The notes under the pieces were generated by a model, which was not told the origin of the DNA, did no database searches, and was given only the letters and a program-made list of their open reading frames with translations. A DNA stretch of 64,000 nt from Winogradskyella pacifica (GTDB lineage: Bacteria; Bacteroidota; Bacteroidia; Flavobacteriales; Flavobacteriaceae), in the NCBI RefSeq assembly GCF_013403915.1, contig NZ_JABFDI010000005.1, positions 1 to 64,000 on the forward strand, written 5' to 3'. The position numbers and the translations under genes were made by a program. Below are positions 34,317 through 39,987 of the stretch, one piece after another (position 1 is the first letter of the stretch; every line of letters starts with the position of its first letter).

Positions 34317-35450
34317 ATGAAGAAAAAAGACTTTGATGTTATCGTTATTGGTGGTGGATTAGCCGGATTAACAAGTGCAATTCATTTAGCGAAATCTAAA
34401 TTAGAAGTCTTACTCATTGAGAAAAATGAGTATCCAAAACATAAGGTTTGCGGAGAGTATGTATCTAACGAAGTATTGCCTTATTTAGAATTTTTAGGTT
34501 TCAATCCTTTTGAATTCGGTGCAAAACAAATTTCTAATTTCGAATTAACCACACATAACAATAAAAAGATTGTAGCTAATTTACCGCTTGGAGGTTTTGG
34601 AATGAGTCGCTATGAGATGGATTTTCAACTGTATCAATTAGCTATTAAAAACGGTGTTTCCGTGTTTCAAGATTCTGTAGTCAATGTAAATTTTGAAGCA
34701 GACAATTTTCAAATCGAAACAAAAACGAATCAAAGTTTTCAAGCAAGAATAGTTATTGGAGCCTATGGCAAACGCTCAAATTTAGATATTCAGTTTGATA
34801 GAAAATTCATTAAAAAGAAGTCACCATATTTAGGAGTTAAAATTCATGTTTCAGGAGATTTCCCTGATGATAAGGTCGCATTGCATAATTTTAAAGGGGG
34901 TTACTGTGGTGTTTCAAAAGTGGAAAACAACCATATTAACTTGTGTTACATTACTAATTTTGAAGCTTTCAAAACCTACAAAGACATTGCAACATTTCAA
35001 GAAGAAGTACTTTTTAAAAATTCCGAATTAAAGACACTTTTTAAGACTACAATATCACAATTTGAAAAGCCAATAACCATAAGTCAAATTTCTTTCGAAA
35101 CGAAACAACCTGTAGAAAATCATATCATAATGTGTGGAGATACAGCAGGTATGATTCATCCGTTATGCGGAAATGGTATGGGAATGGCAATTAGAAGTGC
35201 GCAATTAGCATCTGAATTGATTATTGATTACCTTCAAGGAAAAATTGCATCACGCCAAAGATTAGAATATCTATATACCAAACGTTGGAGAAAAACATTT
35301 GGATTACGATTAAAAGTAGGTCACAGTATCGCTTATTTATTTAGACAAGATTGGTTGGCGCCAAAATTGTTATCAGTATTGCGATGGTTTCCGTTTTTAA
35401 TGCCAATGATTATTAAAATGACACACGGTAAACCTATGAAAGTGAAATGA
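34317..35450 (+). CDS. FAD-dependent oxidoreductase of the geranylgeranyl reductase/aromatic hydroxylase type
   Basis: A 377-residue flavoprotein with FAD motif GGGLAG at 12-17, a conserved Cys45 in KVCGEYVS, and the second FAD motif GDTAGMIHPLCGNGMGMA near residue 278. These features fit the geranylgeranyl reductase-related family, close to p-hydroxybenzoate hydroxylases, so it could hydroxylate an aromatic ring or reduce a double bond. It is the first gene of the polyketide cluster and overlaps the methyltransferase by four bases (ATGA), indicating coupling. In the known alkylresorcinol/alkylquinone clusters (srsABC of Streptomyces) a flavoprotein hydroxylase accompanies the type III synthase and a methyltransferase. 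Confidence 0.85.
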   Translation: MKKKDFDVIVIGGGLAGLTSAIHLAKSKLEVLLIEKNEYPKHKVCGEYVSNEVLPYLEFLGFNPFEFGAKQISNFELTTHNNKKIVANLPLGGFGMSRYEMDFQLYQLAIKNGVSVFQDSVVNVNFEADNFQIETKTNQSFQARIVIGAYGKRSNLDIQFDRKFIKKKSPYLGVKIHVSGDFPDDKVALHNFKGGYCGVSKVENNHINLCYITNFEAFKTYKDIATFQEEVLFKNSELKTLFKTTISQFEKPITISQISFETKQPVENHIIMCGDTAGMIHPLCGNGMGMAIRSAQLASELIIDYLQGKIASRQRLEYLYTKRWRKTFGLRLKVGHSIAYLFRQDWLAPKLLSVLRWFPFLMPMIIKMTHGKPMKVK

Positions 35451-36157
35451 GCTTATTTTTAGATACCAAATTAAGAAGTAACAAAACCGAAATCATGGAC
35501 GATTTTTCTCTTAAGGGAGAATTGCTTCGTGATACTTTGAATAAACTCGGTAAGATTAACAAATGGTTGGGTGGCAATCGGGTAACCTTAGATGGAATTG
35601 CACAACTTTTAAAAAATCAACCTAAAGATAAAACCTACACCATTATAGATTTAGGTTGTGGTCATGGAGATATCTTAAGGTTAGTAGCAAATTATGGAAG
35701 AAAGCATCAGTACAATTTTAAATTAATTGGAATAGATGCTAATGCAGATGCTATTGCTTATGCTAACGAATTGTCAACTGATTTTCCAGAATTAAGCTTT
35801 GAAAGCATTGATGTTTTTTCAGATCAATTTGAAGTTTTAGAGTTTGATATTGCTTTAACCACTTTGTTTTTGCATCATTTTAAGGATAAGGATATTTTAA
35901 GTTTATTGAAGCGTCTTTCAAAAAATGCTAACTTAGGAATAGTAGTCAACGATTTACAGCGTAGTAAAATAGCTTATAGATTATTTCAATTATTAGGATT
36001 AACAATTTCCAACGATATGATAGTTGAGGACGGATTAACTTCAATTTTAAGAGCGTTTAGCCGAAAGGATTTGGAAAATTATTCTAATACATTACATCTA
36101 AAATCAGAGATTCGTTGGCAATGGGCTTTTCGTTATCAATGGCTTATTCGAAGTTGA
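35447..36157 (+). CDS. Class I SAM-dependent methyltransferase
   Basis: A 236-residue Rossmann methyltransferase with motif I IIDLGCGHGD (68-75), an acidic residue ending the second strand (LIGIDAN), and the third-strand LTTLFLHHF segment. The N-terminal helical part (1-60) is like that of O- or C-methyltransferases acting on polyketides and quinones. Translation is coupled to the flavoprotein gene and it precedes the type III polyketide synthase by 58 bases. In this context it is likely to methylate the polyketide product; the atom methylated cannot be told. Confidence 0.85.
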   Translation: MSLFLDTKLRSNKTEIMDDFSLKGELLRDTLNKLGKINKWLGGNRVTLDGIAQLLKNQPKDKTYTIIDLGCGHGDILRLVANYGRKHQYNFKLIGIDANADAIAYANELSTDFPELSFESIDVFSDQFEVLEFDIALTTLFLHHFKDKDILSLLKRLSKNANLGIVVNDLQRSKIAYRLFQLLGLTISNDMIVEDGLTSILRAFSRKDLENYSNTLHLKSEIRWQWAFRYQWLIRS

Positions 36158-36215
36158 GTATTTATGCAGATTTGTTTAAAAACGAAAAATAAAAATCGCC
36201 TTTAATAGAAAATAT

Positions 36216-37268
36216 ATGGCAGTAAAAATAACAGCAGTAGCAAAACAATTACCAAAATACAGCAGAGAAACTAAAGATATTTTACCCTTTGTTGAATTAT
36301 GGTTAGATGGCCAAGAAGAACGTTTTAAACGAAAAGTTTTAAAGATTTTTGAAAATGCAGCTGTAGATAAGCGGTATTCTATTATGGATCCTGAAGAGGT
36401 TTTTGTAAGTACCTCTTTTGAGGAAAAAAATGATATTTATACTAGAGAATCTATAAAATTAGCGGAAGCGAGTTTACAGAAAGTCTTAGATAAAGCAAAT
36501 TTACAACCTACAGATATCGACTATATTATTACAGTAAGTTGCACAGGGATTATGATTCCGTCGTTGGATGCTTATTTAATAAATAGCTTAAAAATGAAAC
36601 AAGACATTGTTCGTTTACCAGTGACAGAAATGGGATGCGCAGCAGGAGTTTCAGGAATAATATATGCTAAGAATTTTCTAAAAGCAAATCCAAATAAGAG
36701 AGCCGTTGTTATTGCCGTAGAAGCGCCAACCGCAACTTTTCAGCTTAACGATTTTTCTATGGTAAACATAGTCAGTGCAGCTATTTTTGGAGATGGCTGC
36801 TCAAGTGTAATTCTATCGTCTTACGATCATGAAAAAGGACCCGAAATCAAAGACGAAGCCATGTATCATTTTTATGATGCCAACCACATGATGGGTTTTA
36901 AATTGAAAAACACAGGCTTACAAATGATTTTAGATCAATCAGTACCACAAACCATTGCAGATCATTTTCCAAAAATTATACACCCGTTTTTAGAACGAAA
37001 TAATTTAACTATTGAAGATATTGATCATTTGATATTTCATCCAGGAGGAAAAAAAATAGTGCAAACGGTTGAGGATTTGTTTGGCGATTTAGGCAAAAAC
37101 ATAGATGACACCAAAGAGGTTTTAAGATTATTTGGTAACATGAGTAGCGCAACTGTTCTCTATGTTCTAGAGCGTTTTATGGATCGAGATTTACCAAAAG
37201 GAGACAAGGGAATAATGCTAAGTTTTGGGCCAGGTTTTTCGGCACAACGTATTTTGTTAGAGTGGTAA
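36216..37268 (+). CDS. Type III polyketide synthase (chalcone/stilbene synthase family)
   Basis: A 350-residue homodimeric ketosynthase. The catalytic triad is Cys141 (TEMGCAAGVSG), His275 (FHPGGKKIV) and Asn308 (FGNMSSATVLYVLERF), all intact, and the C-terminal LSFGPGFSAQ matches the family GFGPG loop. Type III enzymes take an acyl starter and add malonyl units to make pyrones, resorcinols or acylphloroglucinols. Neighbouring dehydratase, ketosynthase, carrier protein and phosphopantetheinyl transferase suggest the starter is made on a dedicated ACP, comparable with ArsA/D feeding ArsB/C in Azotobacter. Product is unknown. The 4-base gap to the dehydratase gene shows tight linkage. Confidence 0.93.
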   Translation: MAVKITAVAKQLPKYSRETKDILPFVELWLDGQEERFKRKVLKIFENAAVDKRYSIMDPEEVFVSTSFEEKNDIYTRESIKLAEASLQKVLDKANLQPTDIDYIITVSCTGIMIPSLDAYLINSLKMKQDIVRLPVTEMGCAAGVSGIIYAKNFLKANPNKRAVVIAVEAPTATFQLNDFSMVNIVSAAIFGDGCSSVILSSYDHEKGPEIKDEAMYHFYDANHMMGFKLKNTGLQMILDQSVPQTIADHFPKIIHPFLERNNLTIEDIDHLIFHPGGKKIVQTVEDLFGDLGKNIDDTKEVLRLFGNMSSATVLYVLERFMDRDLPKGDKGIMLSFGPGFSAQRILLEW

Positions 37269-37272
37269 TGGT

Positions 37273-37710
37273 ATGATAAAGGAAGACATTATAAAACGGC
37301 TACCTTACCAAGCACCATTCTTATTCGTAGATGGTATTGCTGCTATTTCAGAAAATGGAATAACAGGGCACTACACATTTAAAGAAGATGAAAGTTTTTA
37401 CCAAGGTCATTTTAAAGATCATCCCATAACACCAGGAGTGATTCTTACAGAATGTATGGCGCAAATTGGTTTGGTATGTTTGGGTATTTATTTATTAAAA
37501 GATGAATTAAGCCAAGCTAGAAAACCTCAAATAGCTTTAACATCTCATCAAATGGATTTTTATTTACCTGTTTTCCCCAATGAAAAAGTAACTGTAATTT
37601 CAGAAAAAGAAGTCTTTCGTTTTAATAAGTTGAAATGTAAAGTGAAGATGCTAAATGAAAAGGGAGAATTGGTTTGCAGAGGAACGATATCAGGAATGAT
37701 TAAAGTTTAA
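37273..37710 (+). CDS. FabZ-like 3-hydroxyacyl-ACP dehydratase
   Basis: A 145-residue single hot-dog fold protein with GHFKDHPITPGVILTECMAQ (about 45-64); His46 and Glu60 align with the catalytic His and Glu of FabZ. It would remove water from 3-hydroxyacyl-ACP. It lies between the type III synthase and a ketosynthase, so it probably works on an acyl chain bound to the cluster ACP. No ketoreductase or enoyl reductase is encoded in the cluster, so those steps must be borrowed from general fatty-acid synthesis or are not used. Confidence 0.85.
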   Translation: MIKEDIIKRLPYQAPFLFVDGIAAISENGITGHYTFKEDESFYQGHFKDHPITPGVILTECMAQIGLVCLGIYLLKDELSQARKPQIALTSHQMDFYLPVFPNEKVTVISEKEVFRFNKLKCKVKMLNEKGELVCRGTISGMIKV

Positions 37711-37792
37711 TTTATACGGAGCTGTCAGTTTTCAAAAATCAGATAGCTTTCAGAATTATAAATTTCTTTCTTTTTAATAAGGTTAAAACAAG

Positions 37793-39067
37793 ATGAAAAA
37801 AAGAGTAGTCATAACAGGATTAGGAGTTGTAGCACCCAATGGAGTTGGAGTTCCCGATTTTACGAAATCTTTAAAAGAAGGTAAGTCCGGAATCACATGT
37901 CATGATAACTTAAAAGATTTTAAATTTTCATGTCAGATTGGTGGTGTTCCTCAAATTTCGGACGAAAAAAAATCACAATATTTTACAGATTTACAATTAA
38001 GAGGATTTAATAGTTCAGGGATTTTATACGGATGCATCGCAGGTATTGATGCCTGGAAAGATGCCGGTTTTGATATGGATTCTGAAAGTCAATTAGATTA
38101 TGATACAGGTTTAATTTTTGGAGCAGCAACCTCAGGAGTTGAAAAATTTAGAGAGGCAATTTATGGTGTTGACGATGGTAATGTAAGGCGTTTAGGAAGT
38201 ACGGTAGTTTTGCAAACCATGGCAAGTGGTGTAAGTGCGTATTTGAGTGGTATGTTGGGTTTAGGAAATCAAGTAACCACAAATTCTTCAGCCTGCACTA
38301 CAGGAACCGAAGCGCTATTAATGGGTTATGAACGTATTCAAAATGGAAAAACCAAACGTATGTTAGTTGGTAGCTGTAGTGATCATGGTCCTTATATTTG
38401 GGGAGGCTTTGATGCTATGCGTGTAATGACTTATAAACACAATGAAAGCCCAGAAGAAGGATCGAGACCAATGAGCGCCACAGCAAGTGGATTTGTACCA
38501 GGAAGTGGTGCGGGAGCCGTGCTTTTAGAATCATTAGAAAGTGCTTTAAAACGTGGTGCTAAAATTTATGCTGAGGTTTTGGGAGGTGAAGTAAATTCTG
38601 GTGGTCAACGACAAGGAGGTACACTAACAGCACCAAACGCCGAAGCTGTACAACGTTGCATAAGAAAAGCAATTGAAAATTCAGGAATTACCTCAAATGA
38701 TATTGAAGTGATTAATGGACATTTAACAGCGACCTCAAAAGACAGTTTAGAAATTGAAAACTGGTCTAAAGCTTTGGGTAGAAAGGGAACTGATTTTCCA
38801 TATATAAACTCTACAAAATCCATGATTGGGCATTGTTTAGCAGCTTCAGGCTCTATTGAATGTGTTGCAAGTATTATACAGCTGAAGAATCAGTTTGTAG
38901 CACCAAATATTAATTGTGAAGATTTACATTCAGAAATTGAAGCGCTTGTTGATTCAAATAAAATTCCAACAGAAAAAACCGATTTCAATTTTGATATTAT
39001 AGCGAAGGCGAGTTTTGGTTTTGGTGATGTCAATGCTTGCGTAATTTTTAAGAAATTTAACTATTAA
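37793..39067 (+). CDS. Cluster beta-ketoacyl-ACP synthase (FabF-like)
   Basis: A 424-residue ketosynthase with catalytic Cys168 (NSSACTTGTEALLMG), His310 and His347 (TKSMIGHCLAASG). The first His box is unusual: NGHLTAT where FabF has NAHGTST, with the Gly after His replaced by Leu. The active site is otherwise complete, so it should be a condensing enzyme, probably with altered substrate or geometry. The ACP gene follows, and together they could form a dedicated chain-extension module. It is not the housekeeping fabF, which would normally sit beside acpP. Confidence 0.88.
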   Translation: MKKRVVITGLGVVAPNGVGVPDFTKSLKEGKSGITCHDNLKDFKFSCQIGGVPQISDEKKSQYFTDLQLRGFNSSGILYGCIAGIDAWKDAGFDMDSESQLDYDTGLIFGAATSGVEKFREAIYGVDDGNVRRLGSTVVLQTMASGVSAYLSGMLGLGNQVTTNSSACTTGTEALLMGYERIQNGKTKRMLVGSCSDHGPYIWGGFDAMRVMTYKHNESPEEGSRPMSATASGFVPGSGAGAVLLESLESALKRGAKIYAEVLGGEVNSGGQRQGGTLTAPNAEAVQRCIRKAIENSGITSNDIEVINGHLTATSKDSLEIENWSKALGRKGTDFPYINSTKSMIGHCLAASGSIECVASIIQLKNQFVAPNINCEDLHSEIEALVDSNKIPTEKTDFNFDIIAKASFGFGDVNACVIFKKFNY

Positions 39068-39175
39068 ATAGATTTATAAAAAGCAACGTTATTACGTTTT
39101 TATCACTTTACGTAACTTTATATATTCAAACTAAAATTAAACTAGACAAGAATCCCGTGTTCAACAGAAATAATT

Positions 39176-39427
39176 ATGACTAACGACGAACTTATTACAA
39201 AACTAAAAACCATTATTGAACCTTATATTCAAGATGAGGTAGCTTTTAAAACGCTTTCTGAAGACACAGACTTTATTAATGATCTAAAGGTTAATTCAGC
39301 AAATCTTGTGGATATCATTTTAGATATTGAAGATGAATTTAATATTAGATTAGAAAATGAGGACATGGAAAAAATGTTAGATGTTAAAGCTGCTATGCTA
39401 ATTATAAACACAAAATTAAAGGCCTAA
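39176..39427 (+). CDS. Acyl carrier protein of the polyketide cluster
   Basis: An 83-residue acidic four-helix carrier protein. The phosphopantetheine attachment is Ser41 in LKVNSANLVDIILDIEDEF, an Asn-Ser version of the usual Asp-Ser-Leu site; the following helix II is strongly acidic as in ACPs that dock with ketosynthases. It is separate from the fatty-acid AcpP family in its N-S-A-N-L sequence. Its stop overlaps the start of the phosphopantetheinyl transferase gene by one base (TAATG), so enzyme and substrate are translated together. Confidence 0.93.
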   Translation: MTNDELITKLKTIIEPYIQDEVAFKTLSEDTDFINDLKVNSANLVDIILDIEDEFNIRLENEDMEKMLDVKAAMLIINTKLKA

Positions 39428-39987
39428 TGGTTGGCAATGATATCGTGGATTTAGAGGAAGCGAAATTTACTTCTCATTGGCAACGACCGCGTTATTTAGA
39501 AAAAATTTTTACAGAGACAGAACAGCAATTAATTAAGAACTGTACGAATCCATTTCATGTGGTTTGGAGATTATGGAGCATGAAAGAAGCTGCATATAAA
39601 TTATATGTGCAAGTAAACCCAAGCCAATTTTATAGTCCGAAAAGTTTTGAGTGTAAATTTGAATTTGAAAACGGTAATGTAAAGTATAAAAATTTCGAAT
39701 GTCAAATTAAGACTAGCATCACTTCAAAATACATTTTATCTGAAGCCAGACTTCTTGATGACCGCATGACTTCCGAAGTCATAGAATTTAAAGATAAAAC
39801 CTACAAAAATCAGAGTGCTGTTTTAAGAAATGCACTATTAATTACGCTTTCAGAATTATATCAGCTTTCAAAAGAGGATTTAAAATTTCAAAAATCAGAA
39901 TTTAATATCCCTACAGTACTGTGTAATTCCGTAAATATACATGTGAGTTTAACGCATCATGGCCATTTTGGCGCTTATGCAATTTAG
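39427..39987 (+). CDS. 4'-phosphopantetheinyl transferase
   Basis: A 186-residue protein of the phosphopantetheinyl transferase superfamily. The Mg-binding GNDIVDLE (Asp5, Asp8) and the signature WSMKEAAYK (50-58, Glu54 and Lys58) are intact. It transfers 4'-phosphopantetheine from CoA to the carrier-protein Ser. Size lies between AcpS (about 125) and Sfp (about 225), and the GND start is AcpS-like. Direct coupling to the ACP gene suggests it activates that ACP. It closes the cluster; a convergent sodA gene follows. Confidence 0.9.
   Translation: MVGNDIVDLEEAKFTSHWQRPRYLEKIFTETEQQLIKNCTNPFHVVWRLWSMKEAAYKLYVQVNPSQFYSPKSFECKFEFENGNVKYKNFECQIKTSITSKYILSEARLLDDRMTSEVIEFKDKTYKNQSAVLRNALLITLSELYQLSKEDLKFQKSEFNIPTVLCNSVNIHVSLTHHGHFGAYAI

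Follow-up and report, generated by a model that had tools for sequence, protein, structure and literature searches.

Gene organization of the locus

The window analysed here, the first 64,000 nt of contig NZ_JABFDI010000005.1 of Winogradskyella pacifica (Flavobacteriaceae; assembly GCF_013403915.1), carries at positions 34317-39987 a compact operon in which a type III polyketide synthase (PKS) is accompanied by a small set of acyl-building proteins. Seven plus-strand open reading frames (ORFs) were confirmed, encoding in this order a flavoprotein (FLV), a methyltransferase (MT), the type III PKS, a dehydratase (DH), a ketosynthase (KS), an acyl carrier protein (ACP) and a phosphopantetheinyl transferase (PPTase). 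The main Pfam match of each protein exceeds the gathering cut-off, that of the ACP barely (23.3 versus 20.8 bits), and the set comprises flavin adenine dinucleotide (FAD) oxidoreductase, S-adenosylmethionine (SAM) methyltransferase, FAE1/chalcone-stilbene synthase (N and C), FabA/FabZ, ketoacyl synthase (N and C), PP-binding and ACPS families. ORFs and Pfam matches agree with the seven genes and functions named in an earlier reading of the bare sequence (the original prediction).

All features lie on the plus strand. FLV (34317..35450) belongs to the geranylgeranyl-reductase/hydroxylase superfamily of FAD-dependent oxidoreductases and is a probable ring monooxygenase. It is followed by MT (35447..36157), a Rossmann-type SAM methyltransferase resembling PRK06202, and by the type III PKS (36216..37268). 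Most relatives carry at the next position (37269..37272 in the window) a gene of ~265 codons for a FabL-like enoyl-ACP reductase (ER), which is cleanly absent here. The remaining genes encode a FabZ-like 3-hydroxyacyl-ACP dehydratase (DH; 37273..37710), a single FabF/FabB-like ketosynthase (KS; 37793..39067), the ACP (39176..39427) and a PPTase of the Sfp/AcpS superfamily (39427..39987).

Two junctions overlap, by ATGA at FLV/MT (35447-35450) and by TAATG at ACP/PPTase (39427), and the other four are spaced by 4, 58, 82 and 108 bp. The overlaps that had been predicted are real at these two places; the TAATG that follows the PKS gene, however, is not the start of DH, which begins at 37273 in another frame. 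No ketoreductase gene is present within 34317-39987, as the original prediction had observed, and among the genes that belong to the operon none resembling a ketoreductase was seen.

Conservation and co-occurrence of the operon

A contig scan yielded 507 stretches encoding relatives, the best 80 of which form the named loci (numbers prefixed L and G denote individual loci and genomes). These loci come mostly from Winogradskyella, Polaribacter, Psychroserpens and their relatives, and their gene order is the same wherever the stretch reaches, which marks them as orthologous operons and bears out the view that the genes form one unit.

In a sample of 199 genomes of the family, a close PKS was found in 63 (E < 1e-100), with the next genome dropping to 34% identity, and FLV (E 1e-50) was found in the very same 63. 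The KS (E 1e-80) is present in 62 of these PKS-bearing genomes and in none of the remaining 136. Thus FLV and KS do not persist where the PKS is missing, the pattern that the original prediction had named as its own counter-case; the sole exception is the ER, which one genome has without the PKS. This co-occurrence in 62-63 of 199 genomes supports the idea that a type III PKS and a few discrete acyl-building proteins are merged into one functional unit, and the phyletic profile rejects a chance neighbourhood. Profile searches with thresholds of our own choosing detected FLV, MT and PKS in all of 60 family loci, DH in 56, and KS and ACP in 57. Across the phylum, 33 of 395 sampled genomes encode a PKS of at least 65% identity (30 in this family, three in two other families), after which matches fall to 35% identity. 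About one third of the sampled genera carry the operon (62/198 as judged by FLV, 61/198 by KS), so that it is common in marine flavobacteria and not rare.

Two genomes separate the acyl-building genes from the remainder. G190 and G144 each have DH, KS and ACP as a full-length block at a separate site (L249:3862-5843 and L250:4640-6629), away from the PKS, and FLV, MT, PKS and ER still stand together. Since both blocks are intact, the acyl set DH-KS-ACP moves as one piece and is retained. The co-occurrence of PKS, FLV and KS, and the keeping together of DH, KS and ACP when moved, support the assignment of the seven genes to one pathway.

On another view of the detached blocks, KS, DH, ACP and PPTase would belong to a different lipid pathway, such as one for a membrane fatty acid that is unsaturated or has an extended chain, and would merely adjoin the trio of FLV, MT and PKS, with the PKS fed by ordinary acyl-CoA. 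One further genome, G138, fits this alternative and counts against the single pathway proposed below. It carries FLV-MT-PKS-ER and, in a fragmented assembly, no KS genome-wide at E 1e-80, and no DH, KS or ACP occurs in the examined stretch around these four genes; the trio may work there without the acyl set. Nevertheless, we regard a separate pathway as highly improbable, because none of the 199 genomes has the KS (E 1e-80) without having the PKS and because the unlinked blocks have remained full-length.

The type III PKS and its ring-modifying partners

Alignment to PDB chains placed the catalytic triad of the PKS at C141-H275-N308. The triad is invariant in 144 of 144 orthologous loci, and was thus correctly called intact in the original prediction. 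The only PF02797 match in the window genome is the operon PKS itself. A predicted model of this protein (pLDDT 87.6) has the chalcone/stilbene-synthase fold, with a TM-score of 0.91 to its nearest structural neighbour Pks11 (4jap), followed by CylI; Pks11 is also the best match by sequence, where CylI again ranks close. Solved complexes of CylI (PDB 8ysp, 8yst and 8yw7, by their titles) contain a beta-ketoacyl substrate and a resorcinol product. The models for DarB/StlD enzymes of dialkylresorcinol/flexirubin synthesis match the PKS far below their cut-offs (NF053539, 33.5 versus 550 bits; NF005293, 32.4 versus 450). The position of ArsB W281/ArsC G284 was considered as a predictor of resorcinol or pyrone formation and dropped; the MGW/MGF position nearby failed to separate the aligned enzymes.

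FLV scores 118.6 bits against TIGR02032 (geranylgeranyl reductase) and does not reach the cut-off of 158.8. The nearest PDB entries to its AlphaFold model (pLDDT 89.7) are FAD halogenases, the Cytophaga protein 3nix and aromatic hydroxylases, among them UbiI, 3-hydroxybenzoate 6-hydroxylase and PqsL. FAD-dependent halogenases are marked by the motif WxWxIP and geranylgeranyl reductases by [YF]xWxFP. Neither motif occurs in any of 144 FLV proteins. This makes a halogenase less likely, although halogenases rank first by fold, and likewise a geranylgeranyl reductase, for which the TIGR02032 score also falls short. We prefer a probable ring hydroxylase or monooxygenase, because the halogenase motif is lacking from all 144 proteins and aromatic hydroxylases are near in fold. 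MT matches Pfam Methyltransf_31/25 above cut-off and NF004851 below it (130 versus 243 bits). No Pfam match to an ICMT-type signature was found in this Rossmann SAM enzyme.

The acyl-building set

Conservation of key residues extends to the proteins encoded downstream of the PKS. H46 and E60 of DH are invariant in 137/137 loci, C168-H310-K342-H347 of KS in 135/135, and the attachment serine S41 of ACP in 135/135. No chain-length-factor partner or second KS is encoded in the operon, which thus lacks the KS-alpha/chain-length-factor pair of aromatic type II PKSs. PPTase is a variable operon member, detected by profile search in 18/60 family loci and 74/80 named loci; the claim that the cluster has its own PPTase holds for the window and not for all orthologous operons.

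Compared with W. ludwigii and W. costae (L001 and L002), sister species that also lack the ER gene, the window has a dN/dS of 0.02-0.15 for six genes and ~0.27 for PPTase, and the operon genes are under purifying selection in this comparison. Against the same two species, dS is 0.41-0.45 for ACP and 0.83 for PPTase and exceeds that of PKS (0.17-0.19), which suggests that the 3′ end of the operon (39176-39987) was exchanged.

Elsewhere in its genome, W. pacifica encodes a housekeeping FabG (L111; TIGR01830 above cut-off). There is also a FlxB-type flexirubin reductase (L118; G000:C88, ~51.3-52.0 kb; NF053542 above the curated cut-off), and from its presence the genome may contain a flexirubin pathway as well.

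An enoyl reductase gene missing from this lineage

In most relatives an ORF of ~265 aa separates PKS from DH. The encoded protein is a short-chain dehydrogenase. Among NCBIfam models it matches FabL best (145 bits, short of the curated cut-off, 328), and among PDB chains 3oic, likewise a FabL. Y167 and K174, in the Yx6K spacing of enoyl reductases, are invariant in 115/115 loci. By these features the protein is classed as a FabL-like enoyl-ACP reductase. A ketoreductase was rejected on the same spacing and best matches, with FabG models close behind (109 versus 145 bits). Accordingly, whereas the original prediction had pointed to the lack of a ketoreductase, comparison with relatives shows that the window lacks an enoyl reductase gene.

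The ER gene is present in 108 of 137 loci with DH in reach and absent from 29, to which the window can be added; it is found in 52/60 family loci and in 54 of the 63 cluster-bearing genomes. Relocation of the gene was rejected: none of 11 ER-less genomes searched genome-wide, including that of the window, has an orthologue elsewhere (at most 30% identity), and four ER-bearing genomes searched alongside gave 53-79% identity. The only ER orthologue without a close type III PKS among the 199 genomes occurs in G031 (65% identity; L248:7157-7951).

We mapped ER presence on a FastTree phylogeny of concatenated FLV, MT, PKS and KS proteins from 135 of the 144 loci plus the window, leaving out nine loci without KS in the examined stretch. 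Loci with split reading frames (L201 in FLV, L209 in FLV and PKS) were kept, and near-duplicate genomes are included (L047/L149 and L071/L152 are identical in the tree, L069/L151 the same or nearly so). ER presence changes at least 13 times among these 136 rows, and 11 of the changes are forced by well-supported branches. The tree itself does not show whether the gene was lost or gained. Loss is likely, since the gene has a constant position, the PKS/DH junctions of ER-less lineages differ from one another, and L202 retains a 28-aa ER remnant at its junction (57% identity, E 4e-7). Regain is possible as well, because two ER-bearing Polaribacter rows nest inside an ER-less clade.

At the ER position, the ER-less L051 (11085-11669) has a possible remnant of an IS200-like transposase, below cut-off, and L155 (8445-8969) has a MepB-like gene. 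Imperfect palindromes of the kind AGACCT..CAGG ... CCT..CAGGTCT lie in operon intergenic gaps of L050, L012 and L148 and are perhaps a mobile intergenic repeat. The W. bathintestinalis genome (PMC7615552) carries an ER-less copy of the operon (L030). A tie between ER loss and cold habitats, as for Polaribacter and others, is only an idea.

The loss might be functionally neutral, with a housekeeping enoyl reductase covering the step and the same saturated tail being made. The number of ER changes (at least 11-13), together with purifying selection on the other genes among three ER-less sisters, would make the ER dispensable. On the other hand, its retention in 54/63 genomes with invariant Y167 and K174 indicates that something maintains it. 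We place neutrality a little below an even chance; it is compatible with the pathway proposed here.

Proposed pathway and comparison with known systems

We propose, with a probability of roughly 60%, that the operon makes a phenolic or quinone lipid and that its type III PKS receives its starter chain from a dedicated ACP. In this scheme PPTase would arm the ACP, and KS would elongate acyl-ACP with malonyl-ACP drawn from the housekeeping fatty acid synthase (FAS). Either housekeeping FabG or the FlxB reductase from the flexirubin set would reduce the 3-keto group, and DH would dehydrate the product to an enoyl chain. In most relatives the ER of the operon would then saturate the chain. In the window lineage, where this gene is absent, either a borrowed housekeeping enoyl reductase would do so or the chain would reach the PKS unsaturated. 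After transfer from the ACP to C141, the PKS would add malonyl units and close what is probably an alk(en)ylresorcinol-type ring. MT would methylate this ring and FLV would presumably hydroxylate it to give a methylated phenol, hydroquinone or quinone lipid. The earlier suggestion of a methylated phenolic lipid, quinone or pyrone was thus a fair guess.

In addition to the KS-less genome G138, several points weigh against this scheme. The transfer from ACP to PKS is deduced from co-occurrence, FLV might instead act as a reductase, no protein of the window genome was identified by name as FabI, and no product of the operon was found in the open-access literature. Furthermore, the PKS is ~27-29% identical to its nearest solved relatives, a level at which resorcinol and pyrone formation are not readable from sequence, and Pks11, its top match by structure as well as by sequence, is an alkylpyrone synthase. 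The latter match favours an alternative in which the PKS lactonises its chain to an alkylpyrone, with MT and FLV decorating the pyrone or its tail to give a methylated product. We consider this unlikely, given that CylI, second in the structural ranking, makes a resorcinol and that hierridin-like pathways, which start from resorcinols, typically include an MT and an FAD oxidoreductase, as described in two reports (PMC8086630, PMC10896814).

The operon resembles several known systems. Cyanobacteria make hierridin by way of hidABC (Costa 2019, cited in PMC8086630 and PMC10896814), where an MT, an oxidoreductase and a type III PKS likewise share one small operon, a likeness of gene content. Its order is MT-oxidoreductase-PKS or PKS-MT-oxidoreductase, whereas that of the window is FLV-MT-PKS, and these two accounts name no KS, DH, ACP, ER or PPTase for it. 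The order MT-oxidoreductase-PKS, reported for nearly all planctomycete operons and as the more conserved cyanobacterial arrangement (PMC10896814, PMC8086630), is not that of the window, which shares the adjacency of PKS, MT and FAD oxidoreductase. The planctomycete mtr-fdo-t3pks operons encode the same three functions in three genes, with no ACP-bound acyl set in the account given. Expression showed their PKSs to make alkylresorcinols, and the Gimesia MT and oxidoreductase add one methyl, probably C-linked, with the role of the oxidoreductase left open there (PMC10896814). CylI of cylindrocyclophane synthesis (PMC8086630) resembles the PKS in fold and sequence rank and forms a resorcinol from a chain built on carrier proteins, but it is fed by type I PKSs and is ~27% identical.

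For the proposed ACP-to-PKS transfer, the relevant likeness is to the Azotobacter ars system. That system uses a type I multidomain FAS, unlike the discrete single-domain proteins of the window. Its ArsA is known to pass an acyl chain from ACP to the type III PKSs ArsB and ArsC, and the source describing this mentions neither a methyltransferase nor a flavoprotein, both of which the window operon has (PMC6274091).

In the srsABC and BpsA-BpsB operons, too, a methyltransferase accompanies a type III PKS, and srs adds a hydroxylase. The srs and bps methyltransferases are of the ICMT type, in contrast to the Rossmann-type MT here. The srsABC precedent put forward in the original prediction is weaker for that reason, and closer parallels exist in hidABC, the planctomycete trio and CylI.

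Surveys with antiSMASH list type III PKS clusters in Flavobacteriaceae with no product assigned (PMC7440613, PMC7615552, PMC9323603, PMC9859067); as reported there, these clusters are not shown to be this operon. No description of a KS-ACP-ER extension of such an operon was found in the open-access literature. We regard the operon as a common, uncharacterised variant, seen in flavobacteria, of a class of phenolic-lipid operons that is already known.

Related loci with a different tail module

We listed 27 Bacteroidia genomes outside the family whose type III PKS is not of this clade, and analysed 18 of these loci. FLV and MT homologues lie beside the more distant PKS in 14 of the 18 (FLV 344-434 bits, PKS 141-173 bits). 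In 12 of these 14 (L223-L225, L229, L230, L232, L234-L237, L239 and L240) a UbiA-like prenyltransferase stands in place of the KS/DH/ER/ACP set, and its Asp-bearing motifs N-S-Y-x-D-x-D and YQHxxD are kept. The UbiA profile found nothing in L231, L233 or the window, nor in the parts examined of the 144 KS-type loci. By their gene content, the UbiA-bearing loci possibly specify an uncharacterised prenylated-polyketide pathway. An MscS-like channel gene adjoins the PKS-MT pair at L223:4430-5257 and L225:7570-8394. ICMT methyltransferases occur beside distant Bacteroidota type III PKSs in L211, L213 and L222, and likewise in two plasmid records.

FLV, MT and PKS are shared between the two kinds of locus, one of which has UbiA and the other KS and ACP, and so the ring-making core appears to be common and the tail-making part to differ. 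This leads us to a speculative and rather doubtful generalization, that membrane phenol or quinone lipids of Bacteroidota may be built from one PKS-MT-FLV core with an exchangeable tail module (UbiA, or the movable DH-KS-ACP plus ER), with ER loss acting as a switch from a saturated to an unsaturated tail. The product might then be a respiratory or redox lipid, for which mycobacterial polyketide quinones, as described in PMC5916927, offer a comparison.

Significance

The operon occurs in about one third of sampled genera of the family, yet no product was found for it in the open-access literature. Three features stand out most, namely an acyl module of its own that is ACP-borne and movable, an ER lost repeatedly, and the apparent swap with a prenyltransferase in relatives. 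If the proposed pathway is true, these bacteria would provide a compact, discrete-protein model of how a type III PKS receives its acyl chain from an ACP, and the many independent ER changes would make the saturation of the lipid tail testable across cultured sister species.

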